A stretch of 38,143 bases of DNA, taken from positions 1-38,143 of the forward strand of contig CANQOI010000019.1 of NCBI GenBank assembly GCA_947625435.1. The letters are read 5' to 3'. Position numbers and translations under genes: made by a program. Below, piece by piece: positions 11,994 through 37,936 of this stretch. This stretch comes from an uncultured Clostridia bacterium. GTDB lineage: Bacteria > Bacillota > Clostridia > UBA1212 > UBA1255. The notes beneath the pieces were generated by a model. It searched no databases. It was not told the origin of the DNA and saw only the letters and a list, made by a program, of their open reading frames with translations. Positions within the stretch are counted from its first letter, which is position 1. Every line of letters starts with the position of its first letter.

Positions 11994-12852
11994 CTTTACA
12001 AATCGTCAATGCCTGTTCCTGCAATGAATAGAAGCGTTTGTTTTTATGGTGAGCAAGATGATAATTCCGGTTAAAATCGCAGTCGGTTATCGTGACCGTT
12101 TTCAATTTTCCCTGTTCGACCCATTCTTTGACCAGATTTTGCGGCAGGACGGCGATTCCGTTTCCGGCAGCGGCGCAGGCGATCAACGCTTGATTACTTG
12201 CCGATTCTATCATCGGCGTTGCGGTAAGATTGTTGACCGAAAGCGTTGCGTCAAGCAAATCCCTTGACGCACTGCCGGGTTCCCGCAGAAGCAGAGGATA
12301 CTTTGTTAATTCCTCTAAGGTGATTTCCTTTGGAACCGCAAATTGGCAGGAGGAAACTGCCGTCAGTCGGTCGTGAAATACAGCCTCCGTTACAAGGTGA
12401 CTCGAATGAATATTTCCTTCCACAAAGGCAAAGTCAAGACTTCCGTTCACGAGCAGTCCCTCGATCACCGAAGTCTGCCGAATGGCGACGGATAAACGGA
12501 TCTGCGGCAATTCCCGATGGATCGCCGCAACCATTTGCGGCATAAACAGTCTGCCTATGGTGAGGGATGCGCCGATGTGTAAATCCGTATTCGTTTCGCT
12601 TTCCCATGCAAGATGTTCAAAATCATCAAAGGAAGCAACGGTTTCTTTCGCTTTCGCAAGCAACCGCTTCCCGCTGTCCGTCAAAACAAGCCGATTGCCG
12701 AAACGGTCAAACAATATCACATTGTAGTATTTTTCAATCTCCGCTATCGTCTGACTGACTGCGGGCTGGGCAACATATAGGGCGCTTGCCGCCTTTGTGA
12801 TCCCGCCCGCTTCACAAACCGCAATAAAAGTTTTCAGATGCCGCACCGTCAT
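11968..12852 (-). CDS. LysR-type transcriptional regulator
   Basis: 294 aa. The N-terminal winged HTH covers residues 1-60 (MTVRHLKTFIAVCEAGGITK, AASALYVAQPAVSQTIAEIE); a periplasmic-binding-protein-like effector domain covers about 88-290. Length is typical. It is divergent from the lgt-chrA-chrA operon and probably controls it; LysR genes next to paired short chrA genes are common in Clostridia. Effector unknown. A dyad ATAAC-N6-GTTAT lies 6 bp before its start codon, consistent with autoregulation. The gene's 3' end is part of the 26-bp inverted repeat. Confidence 0.9.
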   Translation of the reverse strand: MTVRHLKTFIAVCEAGGITKAASALYVAQPAVSQTIAEIEKYYNVILFDRFGNRLVLTDSGKRLLAKAKETVASFDDFEHLAWESETNTDLHIGASLTIGRLFMPQMVAAIHRELPQIRLSVAIRQTSVIEGLLVNGSLDFAFVEGNIHSSHLVTEAVFHDRLTAVSSCQFAVPKEITLEELTKYPLLLREPGSASRDLLDATLSVNNLTATPMIESASNQALIACAAAGNGIAVLPQNLVKEWVEQGKLKTVTITDCDFNRNYHLAHHKNKRFYSLQEQALTICKDLFKNLNG

Positions 12853-12858
12853 ATTAAT

Positions 12859-12874
12859 ATAACCTTTCTGTTAT
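12859..12874. promoter_or_regulatory. Possible LysR binding site ATAAC-N6-GTTAT
   Basis: An inverted repeat of LysR-box size in the 103-bp lysR-lgt intergenic region, next to the lysR start. AT-rich sequence downstream (TAAGATTATACTA) could contain the lgt promoter. Confidence 0.45.
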
Positions 12875-12955
12875 GGACTTGATAAGATTATACTATTTTA
12901 CTTATTGAATATCAAGCGCTATACTGAAATGAATCAACGAGAGGCAGGGCGGCGT

Positions 12956-13714
12956 ATGTTTCCAAACGCAATTTTCGGTTTCATTCATTTGTACGGTCTT
13001 ATGATCGGAATAGGTATTTTATCCGCTTTCGGCGTTCTTTTCCTTTATGGAAAGAGATTGTCGATCGACGGCAAATTTACGGACTTCCTGTTTTACAACG
13101 GGATCGTGTCTATTGCGTTCGGATTTCTGTCTGCAACGCTGTTTCAATCGGTCTATAACTATATCAAAAATCCGGGCGAGGGATTTCGCTTTGGAAGCGG
13201 AATGACATTCCTCGGCGGTCTGATCGGCGGTGTTGTCTGCTTTTTGATCGGTTATGCTATCTTCCGAAAAAGATATACGGCAAAGCTGTCCGATGTGATC
13301 TCTGTTTTGCCATGCTGTATTACGATAGCGCACGGCTTTGGGCGTATCGGCTGTTTTTTCGCCGGGTGCTGCTACGGAAAAGAAACGGAGTCTGTTTTAG
13401 GTGTGAAATTTCCAAATTTGGCGCATCCCGTCTATCCGACACAGTTATATGAAGCCGCTTTCCTGTTTTTTCTGTTCGCACTCTGTTCAGTGCTACTCTT
13501 AAAAAAGCATTACCGGCATAATATGAGCCTGTACCTGATCTGCTACGGTGTGTTTCGATTTCTGATCGAGTTTCTGCGGGGCGATGACAGAGGGCAGCTA
13601 TTCGGGAACATTTCTCCTTCGCAGTTTTGGTCGCTTCTCATGGTGATCGCAGGCGTAATTCTCTATTGCATTATGAGGTATATGGATGGAAAGCGGAATG
13701 AAAAAACTATTTAA
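12956..13714 (+). CDS. lgt: Prolipoprotein diacylglyceryl transferase family protein
   Basis: 252 aa, integral membrane protein with about 7 segments. Lgt moves diacylglycerol from phosphatidylglycerol to the lipobox Cys of prolipoproteins. The signature is clear: HGFGRIGCFFAGCCYG (about residues 128-143), HPVYPTQLYEA, and FRFLIEFLRGDDRGQ. I chose ATG 12956 (MFPNAIF, the usual family start, with an AGGCAGGG site) over an in-frame ATG at 12905 that lacks a ribosome binding site. The gene overlaps chrA1 by 17 nt, so they share an operon. Lgt is normally a single housekeeping gene; this copy inside a chromate-transporter operon may be a paralogue with a changed role. Confidence 0.85.
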   Translation: MFPNAIFGFIHLYGLMIGIGILSAFGVLFLYGKRLSIDGKFTDFLFYNGIVSIAFGFLSATLFQSVYNYIKNPGEGFRFGSGMTFLGGLIGGVVCFLIGYAIFRKRYTAKLSDVISVLPCCITIAHGFGRIGCFFAGCCYGKETESVLGVKFPNLAHPVYPTQLYEAAFLFFLFALCSVLLLKKHYRHNMSLYLICYGVFRFLIEFLRGDDRGQLFGNISPSQFWSLLMVIAGVILYCIMRYMDGKRNEKTI

Positions 13715-14279
13715 CCTCTTTTTTATCATGCTGAAGATCGGTCTGTTTACCTTTGGCGGCGGTTATGCCATGATCGCTCTGCTGGAAAATGAATTTGTTT
13801 CTAAACGCCGCTGGATGCAAACAGATGAATTCTCGGATATGGTCGCTATTGCCGAATCCACGCCCGGCCCGATCGCGATCAACGCCGCCACCTATATCGG
13901 CTATCAACAAAACGGAGTTCTCGGTTCGGCCGCCGCCACAATCGGCGTCTGTATTCCGTCCTTTGTTATTATCTTTTTGATTTCTCTGTTCTTTGATGCT
14001 TTTCAGCAGATACGGTGGGTGGCGGCGGCTTTCAAGGGAATCCAGATCGGCGTAGTCGTTCTGATCCTGTCGGCGGGACTGAAAATGCTGCGACAAATGC
14101 GAAAAACGATCTATAATATCGTGTGCGTCGGTCTTACGGTGGTCTGCCTTGTGTTATGCTCGCTATTTGCCGTAAACTTTTCATCGGTTTTTTATATTCT
14201 CATCGGCGCGGTGATCGGCATAGGCGTTTATTCCGTGAAACGACTGAGCGAACGTAGGAAAACGGAGGCAAAAAAATGA
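13698..14279 (+). CDS. chrA: Chromate transporter half-protein (ChrA family), first subunit
   Basis: 193 aa (197 if ATG 13686 is used). One CHR domain with about 6 membrane segments. The signature FGGGYAMIALLENEFV is near the N-terminus, followed by STPGPIAINAATYIGY. Short CHR proteins work as pairs encoded by adjacent genes; some export chromate, many have unknown natural anions. Its start lies inside lgt and its stop overlaps the start of the second chrA (ATGA), so translation is coupled. A LysR regulator is divergent. Substrate not proven. Confidence 0.9.
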   Translation: MKKLFNLFFIMLKIGLFTFGGGYAMIALLENEFVSKRRWMQTDEFSDMVAIAESTPGPIAINAATYIGYQQNGVLGSAAATIGVCIPSFVIIFLISLFFDAFQQIRWVAAAFKGIQIGVVVLILSAGLKMLRQMRKTIYNIVCVGLTVVCLVLCSLFAVNFSSVFYILIGAVIGIGVYSVKRLSERRKTEAKK

Positions 14280-22587: not shown

Positions 22588-24906
22588 ATGTCAGGCAGGA
22601 TTTCAGAATATTTCAGTATAAGAAAACAGGAGAAGGAAGAGTTCGCGCGTTTTCTGGAGGAAACGAGCGGTAAAATATCGATCGCCGCACGGGAGTACAG
22701 GGATATTTTCCGCAACGGCTCCGAGTATATCGACATACACACCGTAAATTCGTGGAAGCAGCGCTTCAGCAGCGTTCACGACAGCGCGTCGTCTTACTTA
22801 AAGGACGGCATGATAGAGAAGAAAAAGCTTCCCCGTAAATATGCGGAAACATTTTCAAGCATAACGGCCATGTATGCCCATATAGACGAAATGCGTGCGG
22901 AGCACAACAGGAAGATAACCACAGGCGCAAAGAGCGCGGTCACGGAGGCATACGCCGCCTTTTCGAAGGTGCTCGCGGGTAAAACGCCTTCCGACGAACA
23001 GACGGACGCGATACTCGCCCGCGACAGCCGCGTCCTGATATCCGGCGCGCCGTCAACGGGCAAGAGCACGGCGCTGAAGGCCAAAATGGAATATTTAAAG
23101 GCCAAACAGGAAAAATACGGCGCCTCCGACGGCGGAAAAATGATATTTATCGACGCTTCCGATATTAAAAATGTGTCTGATCTCGCATATGAAATACTTT
23201 CTGATGCGGGGTGCGCTCCCGAACGCCTGCCGGACAGATCTGACACATCGGACATATCTGAGATACTGCTTTCCGAGGCGGAAAAATACATCGCGGAAGC
23301 GATCGCCCCGGCGGCGGCTTCCGCGCAGATTGACAATGCATACAGGAGTAGGCTCATAGATTACTATCTCAGGTTCCACATTGCCGGGCACACGGCTTTC
23401 GATTTCAAGAGCCGCGAGGAGTACGACAACTATCTGAGGATTTTTCCTCCCGTTTCACTCAAAGGGGAGCATATGAGATCGTATGAGGAGCTGGATATAG
23501 CGAACTTTCTGTATGCGCTCGGTGTAAAATACGAATACCGCGCGCCCTTCGGGAAGGCTGCAGACCTTCGGGGAGCGCGCACGAGGTACTCGCCGGATTT
23601 CACGCTTACCGATAACGGGGTATGCATAAATGTGTATGAGTTTGACGAGTCAGGCAGCGTCGCATACAGCGGCGAGTCGACGCTCACGGACGCCGAGACC
23701 GTGTCAAAGAAGTATGCGGAGAGAATAGACGAGATACGCGCCATACACGAGGAAGCCGAAGTGCCTCTGATAGAATGCTACTCACACGAGAAAATGTCCG
23801 GCAGCATGCTTTCAAAGCTTCAGGCGGGACTTACGGCCGCGGGCGTCTCATTTAATATCCTGAAGGATTCGGAGCTGTTAGAAGCCATAACGGAACGCGA
23901 CGGCGATTTCACGCATATACTTGCGGAGGGTCTCAGGGACGGCGCGGAGATAATGCTGGCCTCCGAGATGAGCGAGAATATCCTCCTCGATCTCAGCAGG
24001 ACCAAGAGCAAGACCGCCTCCGCCCTTTATAAAAGGCACGAGAGGATGATGTCTCTCATAATGCCGTTTTACGAGCATTACATCAAGAGCGTGCCGTGTG
24101 ACGATTACAGGCTCATTTCACGCGCGACGGATGTGCTCGAGGGGCGCAGGCTGCCCTGCCCTTACAGCCATATCTTCATAGACAACGCCGAAAATATGTG
24201 CGCCTGCACGATGAGGCTCGTGAGCGCCGTAACAGATGTGAGCGGCTGCGGCGTGACTGCGGCCGGCTGTCAGTGGACGTCATATACGGGTCACCGCGGC
24301 GCCGACTCGGTGTATCTCACCGAATTCGGAAGATTCATGCCCGGTTTCATAGAGGCGGAATGCGCACACGTTTTCGATATGCCCGGAAATATTTTCGGTA
24401 AAATGAAGGATTTTGCGGAAAACGGCGGCGGCTATATGGGATATAAGCCCTGCGCCGACGACAGCGACGGACATATTGAAGTGCTTGACGTGGATTACGG
24501 CATGAACGTGCGCGAGAAGCTGACCGAACTTACGGAAAGCATCGCCCGCGAAGGCGGCACGTCTTCGATCCTCGTGGTCTGCAGATACGAAAAAGAGCTT
24601 GAAATGTACAGAGACATGCTCTCCGGATGTAAGAATGTCACGTGCGCATCCGTTTTCGATGCCCGGGGAAAATACGATGCCGTCATATGGGTCAACATGA
24701 AATACTCGGATTTCGGCTTCCCGGACGAAAGAATGTGCTTAAATAACATATCCGCTCTTGCTCTCAGGCGGCCGCTCTCGGCCGTGTTCGATGCGGAGCG
24801 CGGCATGCTGTGCAAGGCCATGTCACTCACAAAGGGCAGGTTTATGATCTTACGCGATGAGAATGACCTCTCGCCCTACGCGCGGGAGCTGATACCGGCG
24901 GAATGA
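22588..24906 (+). CDS. Superfamily 1 helicase-like protein with eroded motifs and a nuclease-like insert
   Basis: 772 aa. The layout follows helicase IV/UvrD-like proteins: an N-terminal coiled region, a PSDEQTDAI Q-motif equivalent, Walker A GAPSTGKST (residues 153-161), an insert at about 310-400 with YEYRAPFG, SPDF and VYEFDE resembling a PD-(D/E)xK nuclease, then the second ATPase half. Yet the other motifs have changed: Walker B reads IFIDNAEN where DExQ is expected, motif IV reads TAAGCQWTSY in place of GDxxQxIY, motif V lacks the TxHxxKG pattern (ASVFDARGKYDAVI), and motif VI (ALRRPLSAVFDAERG) lacks the TRAK form. ATP may be bound without normal hydrolysis. The frame is intact for its whole length, so it is retained. 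It probably shares transcripts with the mutase. Confidence 0.7.
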   Translation: MSGRISEYFSIRKQEKEEFARFLEETSGKISIAAREYRDIFRNGSEYIDIHTVNSWKQRFSSVHDSASSYLKDGMIEKKKLPRKYAETFSSITAMYAHIDEMRAEHNRKITTGAKSAVTEAYAAFSKVLAGKTPSDEQTDAILARDSRVLISGAPSTGKSTALKAKMEYLKAKQEKYGASDGGKMIFIDASDIKNVSDLAYEILSDAGCAPERLPDRSDTSDISEILLSEAEKYIAEAIAPAAASAQIDNAYRSRLIDYYLRFHIAGHTAFDFKSREEYDNYLRIFPPVSLKGEHMRSYEELDIANFLYALGVKYEYRAPFGKAADLRGARTRYSPDFTLTDNGVCINVYEFDESGSVAYSGESTLTDAETVSKKYAERIDEIRAIHEEAEVPLIECYSHEKMSGSMLSKLQAGLTAAGVSFNILKDSELLEAITERDGDFTHILAEGLRDGAEIMLASEMSENILLDLSRTKSKTASALYKRHERMMSLIMPFYEHYIKSVPCDDYRLISRATDVLEGRRLPCPYSHIFIDNAENMCACTMRLVSAVTDVSGCGVTAAGCQWTSYTGHRGADSVYLTEFGRFMPGFIEAECAHVFDMPGNIFGKMKDFAENGGGYMGYKPCADDSDGHIEVLDVDYGMNVREKLTELTESIAREGGTSSILVVCRYEKELEMYRDMLSGCKNVTCASVFDARGKYDAVIWVNMKYSDFGFPDERMCLNNISALALRRPLSAVFDAERGMLCKAMSLTKGRFMILRDENDLSPYARELIPAE

Positions 24907-25027: not shown

Positions 25028-25225
25028 TCAGTCGCAATTTTTGCAACGGTAGCTTGAACACAGGCTCTCATCCTCGCTTTGAGTACAGCAGCCCTTTTTG
25101 GGTGCCACATGGATCTCTGAAAGCGAGCATGCACATTCCGTGTCCATATTATACTTGCAGCTCCTGACGTCACATGAGATAGACTGTCGTCCGGTTTTGC
25201 TGTTTTTCCAATCCTTGTTATCCAT
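25028..25225 (-). CDS. DUF1540 domain small Cys-rich protein
   Basis: 65 aa with nine Cys: ISCDVRSCKYNMDTECACSL matches the DUF1540 pattern (CxVxxCxYN-x-x-x-CxA), then a second cluster GCCTQSE and a terminal CSSYRCKNC. Proteins of this kind are common in spore-forming Clostridia and probably bind metal; function unknown. AGGAGG lies 8 nt before ATG 25225. No partner gene. Confidence 0.8.
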   Translation of the reverse strand: MDNKDWKNSKTGRQSISCDVRSCKYNMDTECACSLSEIHVAPKKGCCTQSEDESLCSSYRCKNCD

Positions 25226-25324: not shown

Positions 25325-27130
25325 TTATCCGTCCTGACTTCTTGCGGAACAGATTTTTTCCTTTCCTTCTCCGTAATACCATTCGCGCTGAGCAGTATAC
25401 ATTTTTTGATACAATCCGTCCGGAATACGCATAAGCTCATCATGTGAACCCGATTCACATATAGCGCCTTTATCAAACACAATGATCCTGTCCGCTTTTT
25501 TTGCAAAGCCCATACGGTGAGATATAAAAAAGACAAGCCTGTTTTCTGCCAGTGATAAAATATATTCGTACATATCAATCTCTGCCATCGGATCCAAAAA
25601 CGCTGTTGGTTCATCCAAAATCCATACATCGGCAGCGGTATCTGCAAGCATTCGCGCTATGCAAAGTCTCTGCATCTGCCCCTTTGACAACAGAACGCCG
25701 TCTTCCAATTGACCGATCTGCGTATTGATCCCCATGGGAAGATTCTTTACAAAATCATACAGATCGACCTTTTGCAATATAGCTTCGATTTCACCGTCAT
25801 CCATATGCGCGCCGCCTCTTCCGAGTTCAATATTTTCGCGTATTGTCATTTGATAATATTGAAAATCCTGTAATATCGCTGTGATGTGACGAACCGAGGA
25901 AGCAAAAGCTCCGTCCTTAACACGCAGAAGATTTAAGATTATGAGCATAAGTGTTGTTTTGCCGCTGCCGTTTGCACCTACAATAGCTATCTTCTCCCCC
26001 ATTTTAAAGCTTTGTGTTATGTTATTCAAAGCGTTGATCTGCGCCTGCCTGTAGCGGTAGGACAAATCTTTTAGTGAAATGGCGCTACTGTCCGATCGAT
26101 CAGCACGATCAGGTTCTATGTAACTGTTCATTATCATCATGTAAGTCTTTATCGTTCTCACATACTGTTTTTCTGTAAAAATGTATTGAATCAAACTGCG
26201 AAACAGATTAAAAAGCTGAAACATCACTGAAGTAATGAGCGTGAAACGACCTATCGTGTAGCGTCCGTTCACTATGCCGTTTGCTACAAATATCAATGTG
26301 CAGAATATTACCGCAAGAAACAGAAGCGATGCTGAAAATTCTGTTGCAAAGGATATCAGATTCATCTTTAATGTGTATTTTCGTTCATTATCGGCATGTT
26401 TTTCATATCTTTTTGTAAAAAACGGTAATAGTCTGCCGGTCTGTATCATTTGATGATTAATGCGGTTTGAGAGTATATTTTCAAAATAACTGCATTTACG
26501 CTGCTCCGGTACCACATTATTTTGATAATAGGCATCCCACTTCCTAAGACGTTTTCTGCCGGATAACAGATTAAGCAAAAAAGCGGCAATAATAAATAAA
26601 ACAAATATAACATTGATACGGGCCAGCATTACAGAGTACACTGCCAGAGCTGTGACCAGATTAATAACGGCACATATATGGGCGATCGATGTCGCATATG
26701 CGTTGGGCGCATCATTGGCGACCCATATACTTTTATAAAAATCACTGTCCTCAAAACATTCATATGAAATCGCACTAAGCCTGCACAGCAGCTCTTTCTG
26801 TTTAATTGTGCTCACCGTTTTTGAAAATCTGCTGCTTACCAGATCAAATATAAAGTTCAAAATGCGAAACATCAGAACTATTCCCAAAAAAACAGTTACT
26901 GTTATTAAAACGGTATGATACACACCGCGATCTCCGAAATCGGCATATGCAATGCTGTCGGTAAGATACTCAAAAAGCTTTAACTCCAAAATACCGGACA
27001 AAGGAATAATGACAGACAGTACGAAAATGAATACGGTTCTTACCTTGCTTACTGCAAATATTTCTTTAAGCACAGTCCTATGTATCGTGAAATATTCCGC
27101 AAGCTTTTCTTTAATATTTTTGCCGTTCAT
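25325..27130 (-). CDS. ABC exporter half-transporter F (last of six)
   Basis: 601 aa: an N-terminal membrane domain with about six helices (residues 20-320), then an ATPase domain with Walker A GANGSGKTT (about 390), a Q-loop ILQDFQYYQ, a signature reading LSKGQMQRL instead of LSGGQ, Walker B VWILDEPTAFLDP and H-loop FISHRMG. The Lys in the signature may make one of the two ATP sites of the dimer less active, as in many heterodimeric exporters. The start is ATG 27130, with GGGAGGG 6 nt upstream; it lies 14 nt after the stop of transporter E. The natural partner is E. Substrate unknown. Confidence 0.88.
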   Translation of the reverse strand: MNGKNIKEKLAEYFTIHRTVLKEIFAVSKVRTVFIFVLSVIIPLSGILELKLFEYLTDSIAYADFGDRGVYHTVLITVTVFLGIVLMFRILNFIFDLVSSRFSKTVSTIKQKELLCRLSAISYECFEDSDFYKSIWVANDAPNAYATSIAHICAVINLVTALAVYSVMLARINVIFVLFIIAAFLLNLLSGRKRLRKWDAYYQNNVVPEQRKCSYFENILSNRINHQMIQTGRLLPFFTKRYEKHADNERKYTLKMNLISFATEFSASLLFLAVIFCTLIFVANGIVNGRYTIGRFTLITSVMFQLFNLFRSLIQYIFTEKQYVRTIKTYMMIMNSYIEPDRADRSDSSAISLKDLSYRYRQAQINALNNITQSFKMGEKIAIVGANGSGKTTLMLIILNLLRVKDGAFASSVRHITAILQDFQYYQMTIRENIELGRGGAHMDDGEIEAILQKVDLYDFVKNLPMGINTQIGQLEDGVLLSKGQMQRLCIARMLADTAADVWILDEPTAFLDPMAEIDMYEYILSLAENRLVFFISHRMGFAKKADRIIVFDKGAICESGSHDELMRIPDGLYQKMYTAQREWYYGEGKEKICSARSQDG

Positions 27131-27144
27131 TTTACACCCTCCCA

Positions 27145-28938
27145 CTATTCATACAATTTCTTTTGCTTGTTGAACATTTCCGCATAGAAGCCGTTTTGAG
27201 CCAAAAGATCATCATGGGAGCCCTCTTCAACTATCCTGCCCTCTTTCATGATAACTATTCTGTCCGCAAGGCGCGCGAAACCTATACGGTGCGATATGAG
27301 CACAGCAGTTTTACCTGACAGTATTTCACGAAAATTCTTTAGTATTTCCACCTCATGTATCGGATCTATCGACGCTGTAGGCTCATCCAAGAGTAAAATT
27401 TCAGGAGACCCCATATATGCTGATGCCAAAATAATTCTTTGTGACTCGCCGCCGGACAATTCAACTCCGTCCGGTGAATATTCTTTTCCCAAAATAGTGG
27501 CGTCTCCTAACGGAAATTTACCTATGATATTCTGCATACCCGCTTTTTGACAGGCAATTTCAAGCTCGTCATCATCATTCATTTTCTCAATGCAGCCGAG
27601 ACTGACATTATCGCGTATAGACAGCGAGAATATGGTATATTCCTGCGGCGCTATGCCAAAGTACCTGTATATCGACGCCTTGGGCATGCCGGATATATCA
27701 TTTCCGTTAAGCTTAACATTGCCGCCGTATTCAGTAAACGCACCGCTAAGCACCTTAGACAGTGTAGTCTTTCCGCTCCCGTTATAGCCTAATATGCTGA
27801 CTATTTCACCTCTTTTTAAGTGAAGATCAACGCCCTTCAGTGCCTGACGATCGGCGTTCGGATATGTAAACGTGATGTTCTCAAGCTTCATATCTGTAAA
27901 ATATCTCTCTTCGTCCGGATCCTCATTTGTACTGTTGCGAAGTGCCTCGGCAATCTGCTTTTTATCGATCGGGGCTACTATTTCGTAGTAATCCTTAAAA
28001 TATTTTGCATCTCCGAATATACCGGAAAATACATTTCCGGTAAGTGAGCGGATACCGCTTACACAAACCTCCGCAAGGCCAAATAACATTACAAATGTTC
28101 CGGTGTCGTATTTATTACGCGTTACCCCGAACAAAAGAATGTATATGGAAATAAATCTCAGCAGCACATTTATGATCTCTACGGCATGATTGTATGCAAT
28201 CTGCTTGTTGTCGATCTTTATTCTTTCATGTATTAATCGCTCGTTATTATATTCCCATTTGCTCATGAAGAATTTAAAGCAATCGTATATCCGCATTTCC
28301 TTAGCAGTCCTTTTATCAACAAAAAGACCTGCCAGATATGCTCCTATACGCTCTGCCTTTATCTGTTTTTTGGATGCATTGTAGCTTATATTGGACGTGA
28401 TGATCGTATGCACTCCCTGGAAGATCATTACTGAAAATGCGTAGGCAATCAGCATAGGCTCATATTTGGCAAAAAGAAGCACCGAGCTGAATACAACGGC
28501 AATATTGCTGAATAAAATGGTAATCAGATTAAATATATACGCACTTGCTCTGTTTGTATTTCCGCATACGAAAGAATATTGATTTTGAAAGTCTGTTTCA
28601 AAAAAGCGCTCCTGCGTAATTTGAACACTTTTTTTCATGAATATTTTCTGCATAAATACGTCTACCTTCAGCCTGAACAGGTTGTTGGCAAACGCCTCCA
28701 GATATCCTTGAAAAATTGACAAAAGCCACACAACAAGATAACAAATAAGGCAGATAAAAAACAGAACACTTATCCTGCCTGCCGCCGCATTCTCTGTTAA
28801 TTCGTTTATAACATTGCGATTAAGAAAATTCACACCAACCCTTATCAAGCTGGAAAATGAAAATACCAAAACCAGCCCTAAAATATACTTAAAGCAATAC
28901 CTGAGTACTCTGGTCATGATCCATACAGTCTGTTTCAT
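27145..28938 (-). CDS. ABC exporter half-transporter E
   Basis: 597 aa with six membrane helices followed by an ATPase domain: Walker A GYNGSGKTTLSKVLSG, Q-loop IAPQEYTIF, signature LSGGESQRI, Walker B ILLLDEPTASIDP with the catalytic Glu, and H-loop LISHRIG. All residues needed for ATP hydrolysis are present. Its ATG overlaps the TGA of transporter D (ATGA at 28935-28938), so translation is coupled. Expected partner F (or D). No peptidase domain is fused, so it is not a PCAT-type processing exporter. Confidence 0.9.
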   Translation of the reverse strand: MKQTVWIMTRVLRYCFKYILGLVLVFSFSSLIRVGVNFLNRNVINELTENAAAGRISVLFFICLICYLVVWLLSIFQGYLEAFANNLFRLKVDVFMQKIFMKKSVQITQERFFETDFQNQYSFVCGNTNRASAYIFNLITILFSNIAVVFSSVLLFAKYEPMLIAYAFSVMIFQGVHTIITSNISYNASKKQIKAERIGAYLAGLFVDKRTAKEMRIYDCFKFFMSKWEYNNERLIHERIKIDNKQIAYNHAVEIINVLLRFISIYILLFGVTRNKYDTGTFVMLFGLAEVCVSGIRSLTGNVFSGIFGDAKYFKDYYEIVAPIDKKQIAEALRNSTNEDPDEERYFTDMKLENITFTYPNADRQALKGVDLHLKRGEIVSILGYNGSGKTTLSKVLSGAFTEYGGNVKLNGNDISGMPKASIYRYFGIAPQEYTIFSLSIRDNVSLGCIEKMNDDDELEIACQKAGMQNIIGKFPLGDATILGKEYSPDGVELSGGESQRIILASAYMGSPEILLLDEPTASIDPIHEVEILKNFREILSGKTAVLISHRIGFARLADRIVIMKEGRIVEEGSHDDLLAQNGFYAEMFNKQKKLYE

Positions 28939-30749
28939 TTGTTCTTCTCCGACATTCTCATCGTCTCATCAGTATAATACGAGCTTTGTATGCAGTACAT
29001 TGTTTTGTATATGCCATTATCAAGACCCATAAGATCAGCATGACTGCCTTCTTCTGCCGGCTCACCGTTTTGAAGCACGATTATCTTGTCGGCAAATTTC
29101 GTTGTGCTAAGCCTGTGAGATATGAATATCAGAAAATCATCTGCAGCCACGCTGTGTATGAGTTTATTTATTTCATATTCCGCCAGCGGATCAAGGGAAG
29201 CTGTCGGCTCGTCAAGTATCATGGAGCCTGCACCTGCTTTTGCAAATGCCCGCGCAATAACAAGACGCTGCTCCTCTCCGCCCGAAAACACAATCCCGTG
29301 CGGGTCGAAACGCTTTGTATACGGTGTATCAAGGCCCTCCGGCAGCGCCGATATTTTATCCTTTAATCCTACCTTGTCAAGTATCTTATACAGATCCGCA
29401 TTCGCACCCGCGCTTGCAGGCGTGTTTCCGAAATATATATTTTCTCCCACCGTAAATGAATATGTCATATAATCCTGAAACACGGGCGCGAAAAGCGCTG
29501 TATAATCATCATATCTGTAGTCATGTATGCTGACCCCGTCCAATAATATTTCACCCGATGAGGGTTTATAAAGGCGCAGCAATAATTTCACAAGCGTACT
29601 CTTACCGGCTCCGTTGTCGCCTACGATCGCCATTACTTCATTCGTATTTACCGTAAAGGACAAGTTCCTTAGCACATATTCGCTTCGACCCGGATATTTA
29701 AAGCTGACATTCCGGAATTCAAGCACATGGAAATGCTTGGGAACTTCCAAATTGCCTTCCGTTCTGTCCGTTTCCGGTATTTCCATATATTTAAGATAAT
29801 CATCGCAATAATTAACTGCTTTTCGTATATATTCCGCGGCATTGACCATTTGGAAGAAAGCGTCCGTCATCTGCTGAGCCGCGCTTATGAACAGTAAAAA
29901 ATCCGCGATATGAAGCTTGCCTGCAATATACTGCTTAAGAGCAATTAAATATGTAAACACTGTCCTGACAAGTGTGCACGCCGCGCCTATTGTATTGTCC
30001 GTAAAATCAAGCATCGTATTCTTCCTGACTACCTGTAAAATGCTCTTTGTCAGTTCCTTTCTCTTATGCAGGAGAAAGGCGTTTGCGGAATTAAAGGAGG
30101 CATCCTTTTGTACATTTTGATCGAACAATGTATCGTCCAGATATTTCTGCCTGTTGCGGTATACGGCATTTTCCGTGTCATTGGCATGCTGCTTCTTTAC
30201 AATATGCGCATTCATGGCATAATCGAATATGATCGTCGCAAATACAACGGCGGCCACGGCAAAGTGTACCCGTATAAATATAAACAGTGTCGCAGAGATC
30301 ATTACGACCCTGCTTAAAATTACCCTGAATAAATAATGAACCGTATCACTGCTTTTCCATATACCGTCTGAAGCCGTGTCATATTTATTAATATAGCTGC
30401 TTTCCTTGATATCGGCATAATTCATATGCATAGTCTTCCGATTCATATCGAGCTGCATAGTATTTACAAGTCTTATGCCGTGCAGGCACAGGGCCCTTGA
30501 AGCATATTCGACTAAAAACGAAAAAATCACTAACAGCAGATTAACCGATGTTACGATTATAAGCGCCTTCTGAGCTTTGCCGCCCCCTGATATTATGCTT
30601 AAGATCGCTGCGGGAAACAGCATGGACAGCATGTTCTGTGCCTCCTCCATAAGTCCGGCGGCTATCAGGTACGGTATCTCCGATTTGTTCGTTTTATATG
30701 ATTTTTTTATTTGAAACAATATACATTTCAATGTTTTATTTTTACGCAT
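28935..30749 (-). CDS. ABC exporter half-transporter D
   Basis: 604 aa. Membrane domain at about 30-330, ATPase domain after about 355: Walker A GDNGAGKSTLVKLLLR, Q-loop VFQDYMTYS, signature FSGGEEQRLVIARAF, Walker B SMILDEPTASLDP, H-loop FISHRLS. Hydrolytic residues are complete. I use ATG 30749 (MRKNKTLK), which overlaps the stop of transporter C by 8 nt and has AGGCGG upstream, rather than the longer in-frame start at 30791 that lies deep in gene C. Confidence 0.88.
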   Translation of the reverse strand: MRKNKTLKCILFQIKKSYKTNKSEIPYLIAAGLMEEAQNMLSMLFPAAILSIISGGGKAQKALIIVTSVNLLLVIFSFLVEYASRALCLHGIRLVNTMQLDMNRKTMHMNYADIKESSYINKYDTASDGIWKSSDTVHYLFRVILSRVVMISATLFIFIRVHFAVAAVVFATIIFDYAMNAHIVKKQHANDTENAVYRNRQKYLDDTLFDQNVQKDASFNSANAFLLHKRKELTKSILQVVRKNTMLDFTDNTIGAACTLVRTVFTYLIALKQYIAGKLHIADFLLFISAAQQMTDAFFQMVNAAEYIRKAVNYCDDYLKYMEIPETDRTEGNLEVPKHFHVLEFRNVSFKYPGRSEYVLRNLSFTVNTNEVMAIVGDNGAGKSTLVKLLLRLYKPSSGEILLDGVSIHDYRYDDYTALFAPVFQDYMTYSFTVGENIYFGNTPASAGANADLYKILDKVGLKDKISALPEGLDTPYTKRFDPHGIVFSGGEEQRLVIARAFAKAGAGSMILDEPTASLDPLAEYEINKLIHSVAADDFLIFISHRLSTTKFADKIIVLQNGEPAEEGSHADLMGLDNGIYKTMYCIQSSYYTDETMRMSEKNK

Positions 30750-32529
30750 ACAGCACCGCCTGTTTTGAGAACATTTCAGCATACAGAGCATTTTTCTTCA
30801 TGAGAGTATCATGGTTTCCGTCCTCTGCTATTTCACCGTTATCAAATACGAGTATCCTGTCGCACAGCCGGCAGCTTGACAGACGGTGTGAAATAAATAT
30901 TACGGTCTTACCGCTCACAAGCTCATCGAACCGGCGGTATATCTCATATTCATTTTGAGGCGAGAGGGAGGCCGTAGGCTCGTCAAGTATATAAATATCC
31001 GAATTGCGCTTAAGCATACGCGCGATCGCAAGCTTCTGTGACTCTCCGCCGGAAAGCTCCGTTCCGTCTTTGTTAAAGCGCTGCGTTATATATGTATCTG
31101 CTTTTTCCGGCAGCTTCTCCACCGTACCGCGCAGACCTATTCTGTCAATCCGGCGCTCTGCTTCGGAAATATCGTCATTCGACGGATTTTCCTTAAGTAA
31201 AATATTATCCAAAACGGTAAAACCGTATATCTGATAGTTCTGGAGCACAACGGAGAATAGGCGCGCGTATTCCTCGCTGTCCAATGTCTCAATATCAATT
31301 CCGTTATATAATATTTTACCCTGCGTAGGCTTATACAGACCCGTCATAAGTGAAATGAAAGTGGTCTTACCGGCGCCGTTCCTGCCGACTATAGACAGCT
31401 TCTCGCCTAAGTTTATGCGTACATTTATATTCTTAAGCACATATTCCTCTCTTCCCGGATAGCGGTATGATACATTTACAAATTCTATAATGCCGTTTTC
31501 TTTATACTCGGGAGGTTTGATGGTTCCCGTGTTAAGGCTCTTAGTTTCGAGAAAATCCTTTATCTTGGAAAGGCGCACTCCCGACGCAGAACAATTTATC
31601 ACTCTCGCTACAATGCCGTTCACTGTCTGTGAGAAACGGAATACCGCATTTACGCTCACAGAGAACATACCTACCGTGAGCTTTCCTGCGGCAAATCTGA
31701 ATATATAGAATGCATAGAAAAATATTGAGAGCAAGCAGTCCGTTATTCTCGCATATTGCTGTGCATTGCTTATGTGCTTAAGATATTTTCTCGTAACCGA
31801 TATGGACTGCTCAAGCGTTTCGGCATGTCTTTGTGATACGAAGGGCTGGAGATCGAAAATTCTTACCTCTTTTGCATACGGCGGCTTAGGTACTTCATAA
31901 CTGAAATACCGCATTATTCTGTTGGGCTTGTTTTCCTCCTCCTCGGCATTAATGCTGTTTACCGCGATAAAACGGTTTGCGGCCGCATATATTATTGTGC
32001 TTATCACAAAAATAATAATGCACCACCATGGCATGCTCTTTAGTATGTACAAAAGTCCCGCCAGCTCAACTGCCAGAAATACAAATGAAAATATGCTGCT
32101 TATAAAGCTTATTGTAAGACAATCGTTTGAGCACATGCGCGCTATCTCAAAGCGCTCAAAAATTTCGGGATTTTCCAGCTGCTCCTGCCTGAGTGATATT
32201 GCTTTTTCCACGAGCATTCTGTTAAGCTCTGTCTTAACCTGTTCATTTTGAATGTCGCTCGCTCTTTGAATGAGCGATTTCACAAGAGATAAAGCAAATT
32301 GCCATATGGAAAATGCCGCCACTGCGTATATTAAATTGCGGTACATGCGCTCTGCGAGACAGTCTAAAATAAATCCGGGGAAAATAACTATTACAAAGGT
32401 ATTGACCGTTTCTATTATATAACTGAGAAGCACAAGTAAAATGCTTACTTTACTTAATTTCCACTGCAGCTTTATAAAATATGCATATGACTTAAATACT
32501 TTTTTAAATGAGGATTTTTTAATTGACAT
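30742..32529 (-). CDS. ABC exporter half-transporter C (first of the four-gene block)
   Basis: 595 aa, starting MSIKKSSFKK; six membrane helices, then Walker A GRNGAGKTTFISLMTG, Q-loop VLQNYQIYG, signature LSGGESQKLAIARML, Walker B IYILDEPTASLSP, H-loop FISHRLS. Complete ATPase residues. A GGAAGTGA site stands before ATG 32529. The 96 bp in front of it contain the hairpin at 32548-32627 and a short Cys-rich frame. It overlaps D by 8 nt, so C and D are the likely heterodimer. Confidence 0.9.
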   Translation of the reverse strand: MSIKKSSFKKVFKSYAYFIKLQWKLSKVSILLVLLSYIIETVNTFVIVIFPGFILDCLAERMYRNLIYAVAAFSIWQFALSLVKSLIQRASDIQNEQVKTELNRMLVEKAISLRQEQLENPEIFERFEIARMCSNDCLTISFISSIFSFVFLAVELAGLLYILKSMPWWCIIIFVISTIIYAAANRFIAVNSINAEEEENKPNRIMRYFSYEVPKPPYAKEVRIFDLQPFVSQRHAETLEQSISVTRKYLKHISNAQQYARITDCLLSIFFYAFYIFRFAAGKLTVGMFSVSVNAVFRFSQTVNGIVARVINCSASGVRLSKIKDFLETKSLNTGTIKPPEYKENGIIEFVNVSYRYPGREEYVLKNINVRINLGEKLSIVGRNGAGKTTFISLMTGLYKPTQGKILYNGIDIETLDSEEYARLFSVVLQNYQIYGFTVLDNILLKENPSNDDISEAERRIDRIGLRGTVEKLPEKADTYITQRFNKDGTELSGGESQKLAIARMLKRNSDIYILDEPTASLSPQNEYEIYRRFDELVSGKTVIFISHRLSSCRLCDRILVFDNGEIAEDGNHDTLMKKNALYAEMFSKQAVLYA

Positions 32530-32547
32530 AAAATCACTTCCGATACT

Positions 32548-32627
32548 GAATGCTCAGGTCATATTGTGCCGCAGTCCGTTCCTATTCCGCAGGCAATACG
32601 ACCTGATCGGCAAATGTCTGTGCATTC
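32548..32627 (-). ncRNA. Long hairpin in the leader of the four-gene ABC block
   Basis: Left arm TCAGGTCATATTGTGCC (32554-32570) pairs with GGCAATACGACCTGA (32592-32606): 7 bp, one mismatch, 5 bp, a TG bulge, 2 bp. GAATGC and GCATTC close an outer stem. It sits between a small ORF and the start of transporter C and has no T run. It could be an attenuator or RNA-processing site; a DNA element is also possible. Confidence 0.4.
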
Positions 32628-32838
32628 AATATAGTTTTAATGTAATTGTGTAATCATTTTGGGCTTCAAGAAAGATAATGTCATGCGGCTCAGCTTTATG
32701 TATGACTTCGGCCATTTCTATTACATCCTGTTCAAGCAATCCGACATTTGATGTTTTTTTCTGAATCTCACGTGCGGCGAAAACCAAGAAGATTTTTTTA
32801 CGACGCGTCCCAAAATCCCGTACTGCCTTCTGATACAT
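32626..32838 (-). CDS. Small ORF of unknown function before the ABC block
   Basis: 70 codons, ATG 32838 with a weak GGTGA site. The protein starts with a basic segment (FGTRRKKIFLVFAAREIQKK), continues with an acidic helix (EQDVIEMAEVIHKAEPHD) and ends DYTITLKLY. I do not recognise it. It ends inside the right part of the hairpin. Loss of one A from the A4 run at 32635-32638 would carry the frame on for 25 more codons to 32559, giving a tail with four Cys spaced C-x3-C-x6-C-x5-C. It lies 60 nt after the Rpn gene and 96 nt before transporter C, all on one strand. Confidence 0.4.
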   Translation of the reverse strand: MYQKAVRDFGTRRKKIFLVFAAREIQKKTSNVGLLEQDVIEMAEVIHKAEPHDIIFLEAQNDYTITLKLY

Positions 32839-32898
32839 TTAGTTTCACCGGTAAAAATATATGAACGCCATATAATGAATACCGGAGAACTTCCCGTT

Positions 32899-33927
32899 TT
32901 AGCTCAAATGTGCCTCTTGCTCTTTCAATTTATTGATCTCGCAGGCTGAAAGCTCTGTAAGCTCCGATATTTCTTCGACACTTTTGCCCATCTTGAGCAT
33001 TTTGAGGGCTATGCTCATTCTGCCTCTGGAGAGTCCTATATTTATGCCCTCGCTTCTGCCTCTGGAGAGCCCTATATTTATGCCTTCGCTCATGCCCTCG
33101 CTTCTGCCCTCTTCCTTTGCTTCACTCATATCCAACCTGTATTTAAGTGCCAGCAGCATATCATCGTGCCTCCATTCCGACCTTTTGGTCATTTCAACAG
33201 CCTTGTCTATCTCCTTGATGAGCTCTACGTCTGTATTCCGTGCGTCGTATACCGACGTGTTGTTCATATATTTAAGAAGCTCCCGCTGATCGCGGCTTAT
33301 CTCTCCTATGTGCCCCGTTGTATTGAAAAATATCTTGTAGGCTTCATCATTTAATAAAATATTTTTGTTTTCCCTGCATATGTTCTCAAAGGAGTATCTG
33401 TAAAAGCCTTTGCCGAACGGGTCGAATTTGCATATGAATATTATATAGCTTGGCCGGAGCTTTGAAAATTCGTCTCCCTTTTGCAGCTGATTTATATCTA
33501 TATGAGACTGATACAGTCTCGCTCTCTTGGGCAGGTGCCCGCTCCTTACAGTCTGCATTTCTATATCATATATTGTCTTACCGTCATCAATATATGCGTC
33601 GAATCTGACCGACCGTCTTCCTACAAGAGGCGATAAGGTCTTTTGCGTCTCTGAAATGACGCTCTTATCATCATGCTGCTCCTCCGGCTCTGCAACATAT
33701 TTTATTTTGTATATTTTATGTTCGGGGAAGAGGCAGCTTACAACCCCTTTGCATATTTCCTCATTCTTCATCACATGTGCGAACATGTAATCATCTGTAA
33801 TATCAATCCTGTCAAGCCATTCCTCATATCCGCTATTATCCTCGCAGGCATAATATTCATATTCGCCTATATGAGGTAAAATGCGGGCGCTCATATACTC
33901 TTCTTTTTGTTTGTAAGCCGTTACCAT
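32899..33927 (-). CDS. Rpn family recombination-promoting nuclease (PD-(D/E)xK transposase-like)
   Basis: 342 aa. Starts with the family pattern DRIDITDDYMFAHVMKNEE, then LVGRRSVRFDAYIDDGKTIY and DIEMQ, which give the D...ExQ nuclease core (about residues 110-125), a KRARLYQSHIDINQLQKG segment, and PSYIIFICKFDPFGKG. The end has a charged GRSEG/INIGLSRG repeat stretch and a final helix. Members cut DNA and promote RecA-independent recombination in E. coli; many lie in variable regions. AAAGGAG stands 9 nt before ATG 33927. It is read in the same direction as the ABC genes; whether it belongs to them or merely landed there is open. Confidence 0.85.
   Translation of the reverse strand: MVTAYKQKEEYMSARILPHIGEYEYYACEDNSGYEEWLDRIDITDDYMFAHVMKNEEICKGVVSCLFPEHKIYKIKYVAEPEEQHDDKSVISETQKTLSPLVGRRSVRFDAYIDDGKTIYDIEMQTVRSGHLPKRARLYQSHIDINQLQKGDEFSKLRPSYIIFICKFDPFGKGFYRYSFENICRENKNILLNDEAYKIFFNTTGHIGEISRDQRELLKYMNNTSVYDARNTDVELIKEIDKAVEMTKRSEWRHDDMLLALKYRLDMSEAKEEGRSEGMSEGINIGLSRGRSEGINIGLSRGRMSIALKMLKMGKSVEEISELTELSACEINKLKEQEAHLS
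33019..33090. repeat. 36-bp tandem repeat inside the Rpn gene
   Basis: Two near-identical 36-bp units (33019-33054 and from 33055) encode INIGLSRGRSEG twice. The period is a multiple of three, so copy-number changes keep the frame. Confidence 0.7.
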
Positions 33928-34067
33928 ACAGCATCACTCCTTTAAAATCATAATCAAATAAAATTATGCAAAACCAAAGTCCTGCCCGGACATTCGTTTT
34001 TTATAATTTACAATTACTATATAAAGGCTGCAAGACACACATTAATAAGTGCGTCAAACCATGGATA

Positions 34068-34079
34068 CTGCATATGCAG
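34068..34079. promoter_or_regulatory. Palindrome CTGCATATGCAG
   Basis: A perfect 12-bp palindrome directly downstream of the -10 box at 34080-34085 on the minus strand. In that position a bound protein would block transcription start. Slight symmetry extends beyond it (ATA on both sides). Confidence 0.5.
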
Positions 34080-34108
34080 AGTATACAACATTTCACAGGA
34101 TGAGGCAA
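34080..34108 (-). promoter_or_regulatory. Promoter of the Rpn / four-gene ABC block
   Basis: Minus strand: TTGCCT (34103-34108), a 17-bp spacer, TATACT (34080-34085), about 150 bp before the Rpn start and just after the end of transporter B. It could drive Rpn, the small ORF and transporters C to F. Confidence 0.5.
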
Positions 34109-34131
34109 TATACAATTTAAAGCAGTCTGTT

Positions 34132-35925
34132 CTAAGTCTGCACAAACGCCTCCGGTTCATAATAAAGATCAGCCTGCTTTTCAAATAATTCTGCGTAAAG
34201 TCCCCGTTTACTTATCAGTTCTTCGTGCGATCCGTCTTCAACAATCCTGCCATGATCGAGCACGATAATACGATCCGCAAGGCGGGCTGTTGCCATTCTA
34301 TGCGTGACAAACACAGCGGTCTTATTCTTTGAAAGTATCAAAAACTGCCTGTAAATAAATTCCTCGCTGTATGCATCCAGTGAAGATGTAGGCTCGTCAA
34401 GGATCAACAAATTTCCGTTTCTGAAATATGCGCGTGAGAGCGCCAGCCTTTGCCATTCTCCGCCTGACAGCTCGGTGCCGTTTTTATATTGTGTGCCGAT
34501 CAATTGCTCAAGTCCATTTTCAAATCTGCTTATAATATTTTGAGCACTGCCTTTTTCCGCTGCTTCTGTGATTGCTTTTGAATCATCAATCCTTTCCACG
34601 TCTCCGAAGGCAATATTTTCACGCACAGAAAGATAATATCTGCAAAAATCCTGCGGAACAATTGAAATGCCGCGTCGGTATACATCTATATTGATGTCTG
34701 AAATTTTGCAATCTCCTACATACAAGCTTCCCGATATTGGCATATTGATCCCTGAAAGAAGCCGTACGAGCGTACTTTTCCCGGCTCCGTTTTCTCCCAC
34801 TATAGCAAGCTTTTCACCGGGGTGCAGCGTAAAATCAATATGTGAGAGAATATCACCTGTTTCTTCCTTATATTTAAAGCATACATCTTTAAATGTTATA
34901 GGCGCTTCCGCATTTATCTCTATACCTTCTTTTGTTTCCTCTTCCGCATTCATAAGCGTCAGATACTTATCCGCCATTATGTATTGCAGTTTTTTATTGC
35001 CTATTTTTGCCACAAAAAGATTAAAATACTGTATCAGATTCCCGCTCGCCGTATAAAACGCTGCAAATCCTCCGGCTGTCAGTTGTCCCTTTATGATAAG
35101 ATAAAATCCAAAGCCAAGTACCGAAAAACTGATCAGATCCTTTATCATCGATACAATGATCTCAATTCCGGTAATTTTAAAATTAAACCTTTCTGTTCTG
35201 TTGAAATTTTCGGTCGCCTTCTCCTTATAGAGACGGGAGAAGAAAGGCATCACGCCCAATATTTTCATATCCTTTACGATATCCTTCTGAAAAAGAAGAC
35301 CACGGTAATATTCTTCTCTTCTTTCCGCCTCTGTCATATCAAGCTGAAACGCTGCACGTTTATTTATCAGCTTTTGGTTTACAATGATAGTTATGACAAG
35401 ATTTACGAGCGACAGCAAAGCCATATAAATGCTGTATTGAAAAAAAACGACCGCCACGAACAGAAATTTCAGAAAGAAATATGCCATATATACATGCTGA
35501 TAAAAATAATCAAGCAGAAAGCCCCCGTTTACAGACATTGCCTGACTGATCAGGTTCCGGTTATCGTTGTTCTCAATATATGATACCGGTAGACGAATTA
35601 CTTTTTTTATGGTATTTTCTGAAATCTTAAGCTGAATTTTATACTCGATTCTTGACGATACGATCCGGGTAAGAGCATATGTTATCTGAGGCAACAGATA
35701 CATCGATGCTCCGTAAACAATAATAAAATAAAAAAACCGCATATCTCCGTACCGCAGTAAATGTGCATCATCTATTGCCATTGCGAGAAATTTAGCACCC
35801 ACTGCATCCAGGCACGATGAAAAAACGGTAATCAATAAGTAAATAAAGACTCCGAGCGGCGCTGTTTTGAATATAAGCTTAAATATATATGCCGTAACAT
35901 TATTTCTGTGCTTTTTCGTTTTCAT
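34132..35925 (-). CDS. ABC exporter half-transporter B
   Basis: 597 aa from ATG 35925 (MKTKKHRNN), which overlaps the 3' end of transporter A by 26 nt; a longer in-frame start at 35976 lies further inside A and is less likely. Six membrane helices, then Walker A GENGAGKSTLVRLLSG, Q-loop VPQDFCRYY, signature LSGGEWQRLALSRAY, Walker B LLILDEPTSSLD, H-loop FVTHRMA. All catalytic residues are intact. The deep overlap with A suggests that the two are made together as a heterodimer. Confidence 0.9.
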   Translation of the reverse strand: MKTKKHRNNVTAYIFKLIFKTAPLGVFIYLLITVFSSCLDAVGAKFLAMAIDDAHLLRYGDMRFFYFIIVYGASMYLLPQITYALTRIVSSRIEYKIQLKISENTIKKVIRLPVSYIENNDNRNLISQAMSVNGGFLLDYFYQHVYMAYFFLKFLFVAVVFFQYSIYMALLSLVNLVITIIVNQKLINKRAAFQLDMTEAERREEYYRGLLFQKDIVKDMKILGVMPFFSRLYKEKATENFNRTERFNFKITGIEIIVSMIKDLISFSVLGFGFYLIIKGQLTAGGFAAFYTASGNLIQYFNLFVAKIGNKKLQYIMADKYLTLMNAEEETKEGIEINAEAPITFKDVCFKYKEETGDILSHIDFTLHPGEKLAIVGENGAGKSTLVRLLSGINMPISGSLYVGDCKISDINIDVYRRGISIVPQDFCRYYLSVRENIAFGDVERIDDSKAITEAAEKGSAQNIISRFENGLEQLIGTQYKNGTELSGGEWQRLALSRAYFRNGNLLILDEPTSSLDAYSEEFIYRQFLILSKNKTAVFVTHRMATARLADRIIVLDHGRIVEDGSHEELISKRGLYAELFEKQADLYYEPEAFVQT

Positions 35926-37714
35926 AATACCACTGTCCCTGTGTTCTGAACATTGTCGCATATTTGCCGTCAGCATTCATTAATTCTTCGTGCGTGCCCA
36001 TTTCGCAGATACGCCCACCTTCCATATAAAGAATTCTGTCCACATTTTTCAGAGCGCCTAAACGGTGCGATATGATCACGGCTGTTTTACCCTTGCTTTC
36101 ACGGAAAAACATTTGAAACAGCCTTTGCTCCGTATCGGGCGAAAGATTCGCGGAAGGTTCATCCAGAATAAAAATCTCAGCACTCCCGGCAAAGCATCTC
36201 AGTATATTGATTTTCTGCCATTCTCCTCCCGACGGCTCAATCTTTCCAAACTGAAGCCCCAATAGTTCTTTTTCCTGTGCCGGATATTTTTTGACTGCGT
36301 CATAAAGGTCGATTTCCTTTACAAGTCTGTCTAAATCATTATTTTTCTCTCTTCCCAAAAGAATATTATCCTCAAAAGATAATTCAAATCTATGATTTTT
36401 CTGACTTACAAAAGCTATCTTCTTTTGTATTTCACTTTTTAATATATCCTTATAATCAATACCGTCTATCAATATTCTCCCGTCCGTAGGCATATAAGAG
36501 CCCATAAGCAAATAAGCAAGCGTGGTCTTACCTGCGCCGTTTTCACCTACTAATGCAACCTTCTCGCCCTGAAATATGGAAAGATTCAGATTTTTAAGAA
36601 CATCACGTTCAGAGCCGGGATATCGGAACGACACATTTTCAAAACGGATTTCTTTCCGGAATGGCTGCTCCAGACTGCGTCCGACCTGTGTATTTTCACT
36701 GTTTATCTGATCCTGATATTCAAACAGATCCGACAGATCACTATATTGAGCTTTCAGAGAGCGGCTCATTTCACCAAGGCTTGACGTTGCAAATCTCAGA
36801 TCCGGAAGATATGCGGCAATGGCTGTAATGATTCCTACAGACATAACGCCTGCTTTGATCCCGATCCCCGCGCTTATCAGAAACAGCAGCATGATCGAAT
36901 TTATAGCTATTTCGTAAAGGCTCTTAACACAAGCATTTTTTTGTGCAAGCCGCAGTTTCGGTTCTCTGAGCTCATTTGTGAGCAATTTCCACCGTTTTAA
37001 AAGATAATGATCATATTGATATATCCTAAGCTCTTTTGCATATTCATTATTGTAAAAAATGCTATTTATATTTGAAAGCTGCCTTTCTTTATCAAAAAGC
37101 TTTATATTCAGTGAATATTCTTTTTCTCCCATAAAAGACAGCATAACAACATATACTGTCAGCATCGCCGCAAATGCGATCGTGCATATTATATTTTTTG
37201 TGCCGATATAAATAAAAAATACAATGATACTGAGTACTGACTGAACAATATTCGTTGTTATGTTAAACAATCTGAAGGGCGACCACACACTGTTTCCCAA
37301 TATATAATCAATCCGTTTTTGATGAGCTTCAAGATCAAGATACTCCGATGAGACCCTGGATATAAGATCTGAAAGCATCAATTGAGATTTAACATACATC
37401 CTTTTAAAGAATTTGTTATTCATGTAATTTGAAAAAACTCCATACAGCTCCAGTAAAAGGGTGCAGAGCATGATAGTGACAAGACATGCCAATGCTTTTT
37501 TCAGAGATGAATCTGTAGCCGTGAGAATATTATCTGTAAACGCCGATACAAGCGCAGCACTGAACACAGGGTATGCGCCGTATACTATCTTTGTCAATAT
37601 GATAACGCATACACCGGATGGGTATGCCGTCCATATATATCGGTATGCTTTCCCTGTCAGAGAAGCTTTGTCCTTCAGGGCTTTAAATAAATTCTGATCT
37701 TTTGTTTTATCCAT
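35900..37714 (-). CDS. ABC exporter half-transporter A (first of six)
   Basis: 604 aa, six membrane helices and an ATPase domain: Walker A GENGAGKTTLAYLLMG (about 395), Q-loop VSQKNHRFE, signature PSGGEWQKI (Pro in place of Leu), Walker B IFILDEPSANLSP, H-loop IISHRLG. ATG 37714 has CCGGAG 10 nt upstream. It follows a good promoter (37839-37867) and a 9-codon upstream ORF. The only gene of the array behind its own visible promoter besides the Rpn block; overlaps B. Confidence 0.9.
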   Translation of the reverse strand: MDKTKDQNLFKALKDKASLTGKAYRYIWTAYPSGVCVIILTKIVYGAYPVFSAALVSAFTDNILTATDSSLKKALACLVTIMLCTLLLELYGVFSNYMNNKFFKRMYVKSQLMLSDLISRVSSEYLDLEAHQKRIDYILGNSVWSPFRLFNITTNIVQSVLSIIVFFIYIGTKNIICTIAFAAMLTVYVVMLSFMGEKEYSLNIKLFDKERQLSNINSIFYNNEYAKELRIYQYDHYLLKRWKLLTNELREPKLRLAQKNACVKSLYEIAINSIMLLFLISAGIGIKAGVMSVGIITAIAAYLPDLRFATSSLGEMSRSLKAQYSDLSDLFEYQDQINSENTQVGRSLEQPFRKEIRFENVSFRYPGSERDVLKNLNLSIFQGEKVALVGENGAGKTTLAYLLMGSYMPTDGRILIDGIDYKDILKSEIQKKIAFVSQKNHRFELSFEDNILLGREKNNDLDRLVKEIDLYDAVKKYPAQEKELLGLQFGKIEPSGGEWQKINILRCFAGSAEIFILDEPSANLSPDTEQRLFQMFFRESKGKTAVIISHRLGALKNVDRILYMEGGRICEMGTHEELMNADGKYATMFRTQGQWYYENEKAQK

Positions 37715-37739
37715 TACTCTTTATCTCCGGAAAAGTATC

Positions 37740-37769
37740 CTACGCACCGTCACACAATTTGTCTGTCAT
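37740..37769 (-). CDS. Nine-codon upstream ORF in the leader of the ABC array
   Basis: ATG 37769 encodes MTDKLCDGA, then TAG at 37740. GGAGG (37778-37782) stands 8 nt before the ATG, a better site than that of the ABC gene 25 nt downstream. It may be a leader peptide whose translation controls transporter A, or chance. Confidence 0.35.
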   Translation of the reverse strand: MTDKLCDGA

Positions 37770-37838
37770 TTTATCATCCTCCGCTGTAAATCGATTTTAT
37801 ACTGTCAAAGAAATAATATTTCACAACCTTTATGCTGT

Positions 37839-37867
37839 ATTATACGTTAATAAACTATCGCTTGCAA
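37839..37867 (-). promoter_or_regulatory. Promoter of ABC transporters A and B
   Basis: Minus strand: TTGCAA (37862-37867), a 17-bp spacer, TATAAT (37839-37844), about 125 bp before the ABC start. Perfect -10 and ideal spacing. Confidence 0.7.
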
Positions 37868-37936
37868 TTTTATTCTTGTCGCCTGCATCTTGTTAACGAC
37901 CTCCTGAGAATTATTTACGCCGCTTAGCAGGAGGCA

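Follow-up and report, generated by a model that had tools for sequence, protein, structure and literature searches.

Organization of the exporter block

The window analysed here is the whole of contig CANQOI010000019.1 (positions 1-38,143) from the genome of an uncultured Clostridia bacterium (assembly GCA_947625435.1). Six complete TMD-NBD half-exporters lie on its minus strand between positions 25325 and 37714, arranged as a block of two followed by a block of four. We refer to them as T1 to T6 in order of transcription, in which an Rpn/PDDEXK_2 gene stands between T2 and T3. The features of the region are as follows.

37839-37896, minus strand: possible tandem promoters before T1; consensus match only, 10/12 each
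35900-37714, minus strand: T1, half-ABC exporter of 604 aa, first member of pair 1; ABC_tran 7.8e-29
34132-35976, minus strand: T2, half-ABC exporter with likely start at 35925 (597 aa), second member of pair 1; ABC_tran 3.4e-30, ABC_membrane 5.7e-8
32899-33927, minus strand: Rpn family recombination-promoting nuclease/putative transposase (PDDEXK_2), 342 aa, between both blocks; TIGR01784 115 bits (cut-off 52), PF12784 over cut-off
30742-32529, minus strand: T3, half-ABC exporter of 595 aa, first member of pair 2; ABC_tran 5.1e-30
28935-30791, minus strand: T4, half-ABC exporter with likely start at 30749 (604 aa), second member of pair 2; ABC_tran 8.7e-28
27145-28938, minus strand: T5, half-ABC exporter of 597 aa, first member of pair 3; ABC_tran 1.3e-26
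25325-27145, minus strand: T6, half-ABC exporter with likely start at 27130 (601 aa), second member of pair 3; ABC_tran 2.6e-20, signature LSKGQ
25028-25225, minus strand: Cys-rich DUF1540 protein of 65 aa, downstream of T6; PF07561 3.8e-8, over cut-off, AGGAGG before the start

The open reading frames of the exporters span 595-618 aa, or 595-604 aa if T2, T4 and T6 are taken to begin at their more probable internal start codons. With these starts the lengths given in the original prediction hold, as does its description of six TMD-NBD genes on one strand in blocks of two and four, supported by the reading frames and by a Pfam NBD in each protein. Start-stop overlaps had been described within the pairs; these are present in pair 1 (26 nt, counted from the likely T2 start) and pair 2 (8 nt, ATGCGTAA), whereas T5 and T6 are separated by a 14-nt gap containing GGGAGG, and the 4-nt overlap of T4 with T5 (ATGA) joins different pairs. 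Given the overlaps and close spacing from T3 through T6, the four genes of the second block can be read as a single coupled unit, and not just as two pairs.

The spaces around the exporters hold few other elements. Promoter-like sites number 50, as against 38.2 ± 5.3 in shuffled sequence; they do not establish the proposed promoter for each block. Among the small reading frames in the gaps around the array only that of the DUF1540 protein has a ribosome-binding site, and we see no precursor-like candidate beyond it; the peptide-like element reported earlier was accordingly not confirmed, and we are unsure whether the DUF1540 gene belongs with the exporters at all. A regulatory element in the array was not confirmed either. 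At 32626-32838 there is a 70-aa open stretch whose end (IIFLEAQNDYTITLKLY) is reminiscent of a LytTR domain; as a candidate regulator remnant it was rejected, since neither Pfam nor NCBIfam gave a match up to E 10 and the loci compared contained no relative of it. Near its C-terminus the Rpn/PDDEXK_2 protein carries an in-frame repeat (33010-33120, EGINIGLSRGRSEGINIGLSRGR). The gene fragment at 37937-38143 matches no family. Of the window genes that were scanned, none was recognisable as biosynthetic or as part of a two-component system, in agreement with the original prediction, and genes for a precursor, a maturase or a protease are missing from the window.

Composition and borders of the block

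The GC content is about 0.40 in the block and about 0.50 to its left, and GC3 is 0.385-0.475 in the exporters compared with 0.62-0.66 in the genes closest on the left. Farther left, part of the window genes again show reduced GC3 (0.46-0.54, with sigma and LGT at 0.46-0.52), so that composition alone does not prove foreign origin. The flanking gene at 22588-24906 is present in all four congeners searched (G001-G004), and in each of them it is followed downstream by other genes, without exporters. The GC3 contrast and the absence from the same flank in four congeners together point to an accessory island, probably an acquired one, which would have arrived horizontally. No right border of the island is seen in the 429 nt that separate T1 from the upstream end of the contig at 38143. 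A plasmid origin was considered and rejected, as the search for a plasmid source gave no DNA match and only distant protein matches. The flanking gene itself encodes a 772-aa protein that has no Pfam match, shows a visible P-loop-like GAPSTGKS motif, and is 45-52% conserved across the four congeners examined.

Domains, motifs and predicted fold

All six proteins contain an ABC_tran NBD (Pfam E values from 2.6e-20 to 3.4e-30) C-terminal to a helical N-terminal part. The Pfam cut-off for the TMD is passed by T2 and T6 only, indicating that the membrane parts are divergent. Structural models were made of T5 and T1, and matches within Z 1 of one another were treated as ties. Both match full-length type IV exporters. 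The T5 model (mean pLDDT 81.5) aligns with BmrCD chain C over 561 residues at Z 29.3 (rmsd 4.7), and the T1 model (mean pLDDT 82.3) matches MsbA, IrtA and Sav1866 at Z about 30 over 550-564 residues, with TM287/288 also matched at Z about 30. According to these models T1 and T5 have the type IV (ABCB-type) ABC-exporter fold over some 560 residues; the top matches tie within Z 1 and no one exporter family is singled out.

T1 through T6 each have the full set of NBD motifs: Walker A, Q-loop, signature, Walker B including the catalytic Glu, and H-loop. The signature is LSKGQ in T6 and SGGE in the others (with an alteration to PSGGE in T1), and T6 is the only one in which it is clearly altered. 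Most heterodimeric ABC exporters have one degenerate and one consensus ATP site (PMC4997860). In the array, where the Glu after Walker B is intact in six of six proteins, the usual degenerate site is not evident, apart from the LSKGQ of T6.

C39 peptidase-containing bacteriocin exporters carry an N-terminal C39 domain; in contrast, Pfam and NCBIfam scans found no such domain in the six proteins, which are about 600 aa long. A role in anti-phage defence was also considered and rejected, since the PADLOC matches are generic ATPase-domain matches.

Relationships of the six half-exporters

The original prediction viewed the array as the repeated amplification of one exporter type, and proposed phylogeny as a way to tell tandem duplication from separate origins. 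Pairwise identity among the six is 24-38%, and a tree in which all six form one clade is rejected by the AU test (p-AU 3.95e-6). In a quick tree of 100 half-exporters, with SH-aLRT support only and weak deep branches, T3, T4, T5 and T6 each have a closer relative in another genome than within the array. T5 groups with relatives at loci L122 and L123 (clade support 100) and T6 with its L122 relative (clade support 100), while T3 groups with the first members of the pairs at L084 (genome G038) and L042 (SH-aLRT 99), and T4 with the second members of those same pairs (L113, the same place as L084, and L042; SH-aLRT 99). The clade mates of T3 and T4 are thus pairs in genomes G038 and G027. T1 and T2 sit on long branches without close kin in this tree; the best relatives of T1 reach no more than about 30% identity, a first contig search of the genomes with T1 as query gave no match, and a second tree places T1 beside the T5 clade with support of 94. 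Amplification was therefore not borne out, with tandem duplication rejected by identity, tree and AU test alike and the relatives of two pairs standing as single pairs among unrelated genes.

The T5-T6 relatives in G041 (L122, contig C170; JAAYHZ010000247.1, a Clostridiaceae MAG) are 44% and 40% identical, adjacent and in the same order, and the second member shares the LSKGQ signature. The pair stands alone between argGH and ruvCAB, as the neighbours are named from their sequences. At L123 (CALWTV010000166.1, an uncultured Clostridia MAG) a T5 relative of 43% identity overlaps the start of an adjoining T6 relative, again in the same order as far as the contig extends, and this pair follows a radical SAM/SPASM gene. 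The best T3 and T4 relatives are adjacent in G038 (contig C7, 34% and 32%), and a T3-T4-type pair is also found in G027 (contig C45); both are single pairs amid unrelated genes. For two of the three pairs, then, relatives are found scattered with unrelated neighbours (T5-T6 in G041, T3-T4 in G038 and G027), the outcome that the original prediction had named as counting against it, and since the relatives of pairs 2 and 3 stand as single pairs, unlike the array, we conclude that it is not an old unit. Some 300 nt before the T3 relative of G038 lies a 24-aa hydrophobic reading frame (L084, 8318-8392; MVWIYLLLAPIIILHMTATKKRRR) with a strong ribosome-binding site.

Partner and gene order are kept for the T3-T4 and T5-T6 relatives in other Clostridia. 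The three heterodimers proposed originally are thus supported for pairs 2 and 3, and the pairing of T1 with T2 is suggested by adjacency and overlap alone. Runs of more than two half-exporters are not unique to this genome, as three occur in a row in each of G078 (contig C32) and G063 (contig C63); a literature search for tandem arrays of heterodimeric exporters in Clostridia yielded nothing useful. The pump type is known, and the arrangement as an array is unusual but not unprecedented.

Gene neighbourhoods that bear on cargo

In a radical SAM RiPP export operon the maturase and precursor genes lie beside the exporter, whereas in the window both are lacking and such genes are seen only beside relatives. 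At L123 the T5 relative lies just 2 nt behind the end of a gene for a 345-aa radical SAM/SPASM protein (PF04055, PF13186), for which every NCBIfam score is below its cut-off. In G024, of the same order, a half-exporter pair follows genes for an ACP, an AMP-binding enzyme, a CcpM-like maturase (TIGR04068 469 bits, cut-off 500), a TIGR04066 protein (253 bits, cut-off 200) and a subtilase. TIGR04068 and TIGR04066 genes also occur in the SacP23 cluster, whose ABC transporter has been proposed as the exporter of the peptide (PMC10731318). Such CcpM/TIGR04066 peptide-maturation clusters, the SacP23 sactipeptide cluster included, share their half-transporter class with the array (about 30% identity for G024), although they have a maturase, carrier protein and protease beside the pair where the array has none.

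The genome under study has a comparable locus of its own (L153, C13:27001-44212; GC 0.37), a natural-product-like region in which a half-exporter pair lies near genes for an FkbH domain protein, an ACP, NTP_transf_5, a radical SAM/SPASM protein, an S24-PqqD fusion and an HprK-related protein. The G024 and C13 pairs are about 30% identical to the six and fall in other clades; none of the six has its closest kin among them. Elsewhere in the genome (L154, C27:8001-28000, at 8505-14015) there is another radical SAM/SPASM gene, accompanied by PqqD-like and NTP_transf_5 genes, with no half-exporter pair seen nearby.

Peptide export or self-protection, as first suggested, is made plausible by the neighbours of relatives (L123, L050 and the genome's own L153), and a peptide-type cargo is our best guess by analogy; the window itself contributes neither precursor nor maturase. 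Maturation genes are absent around the relatives in G041, G038 and G027, which calls for caution on peptide cargo.

Discussion

We propose that the block encodes three heterodimeric type IV exporters, T1+T2, T3+T4 and T5+T6, pairs of separate origin within an AT-rich accessory island, and that they most likely carry small modified peptides or comparable natural products; we would put the probability of this reading at roughly 0.6. The array resembles BmrCD, TM287/288, LmrCD, PatAB, EfrCD and TmrAB in having an adjacent, overlapping gene pair for each pump, the TMD-NBD order, the fold and the full set of NBD motifs, although identity to the structurally solved heterodimeric exporters is about 20%. 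In this family two NBDs close on two ATP and the cavity turns outward. The three pairs, gathered from separate origins beside a genus-conserved gene, would each form one translocation path, in which ATP binding would close both NBDs and make the membrane domains face outward, in the manner of BmrCD, TM287/288 and TmrAB. Of the two ATP sites in T5-T6, the one that uses the T6 LSKGQ would be weaker, which is the pattern of asymmetric heterodimers; judged from sequence, T1-T2 and T3-T4 may each work with two active sites. The cargo may be made elsewhere in the genome, and exported, or made by competitors, with the pumps giving protection.

Other explanations were considered. One is that these are three ordinary multidrug-type heterodimers, unconnected with peptides, that serve general efflux of drugs, lipids or metabolites. 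The best fold and sequence matches do include BmrCD, Sav1866, MsbA and P-glycoprotein, the C39 peptidase domain is absent, and the relatives in G041, G027 and G038 are alone among housekeeping or sugar genes; however, several kin pairs lie inside peptide-modification clusters and the scores are far under the cut-offs of named multidrug NCBIfam models, and we regard general efflux as possible but rather unlikely. That the block is a remnant or edge of a natural-product cluster, with its biosynthetic genes lost or beyond the contig end, would fit the nearness of that end to T1, the Rpn transposase-like gene and unassigned stretch between the blocks, and the presence of such a pair near biosynthetic genes in the same genome's C13 cluster. 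Yet the terminal fragment shows no sign of biosynthesis and three unrelated pairs exceed one cluster's need, and we hold this reading to be unlikely. Local amplification of one ancestral pair through two in-place duplications would account for the shared strand, type and length, and for T1 falling with the T5 clade in one tree, but it is largely refuted by the low identity, the rejected one-clade tree and the closer kin of T3-T6 in other genomes, and we give it hardly any credence.

Returning to the reading of three pairs of separate origin, a more speculative extension, which we offer as a long shot, is that the island serves immunity alone, as an array free of biosynthesis in which exporters from different peptide clusters jointly shield the cell against several modified peptides made by its neighbours.

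For two of the pairs, partner and order are the same across families, and T5-T6 has a relative directly behind a radical SAM maturase-like gene. 'ABC transporter ATP-binding protein/permease' is a common and empty label in uncultured Clostridia, and for these six genes it may be replaced by a testable link between an orphan exporter array and modified peptides.
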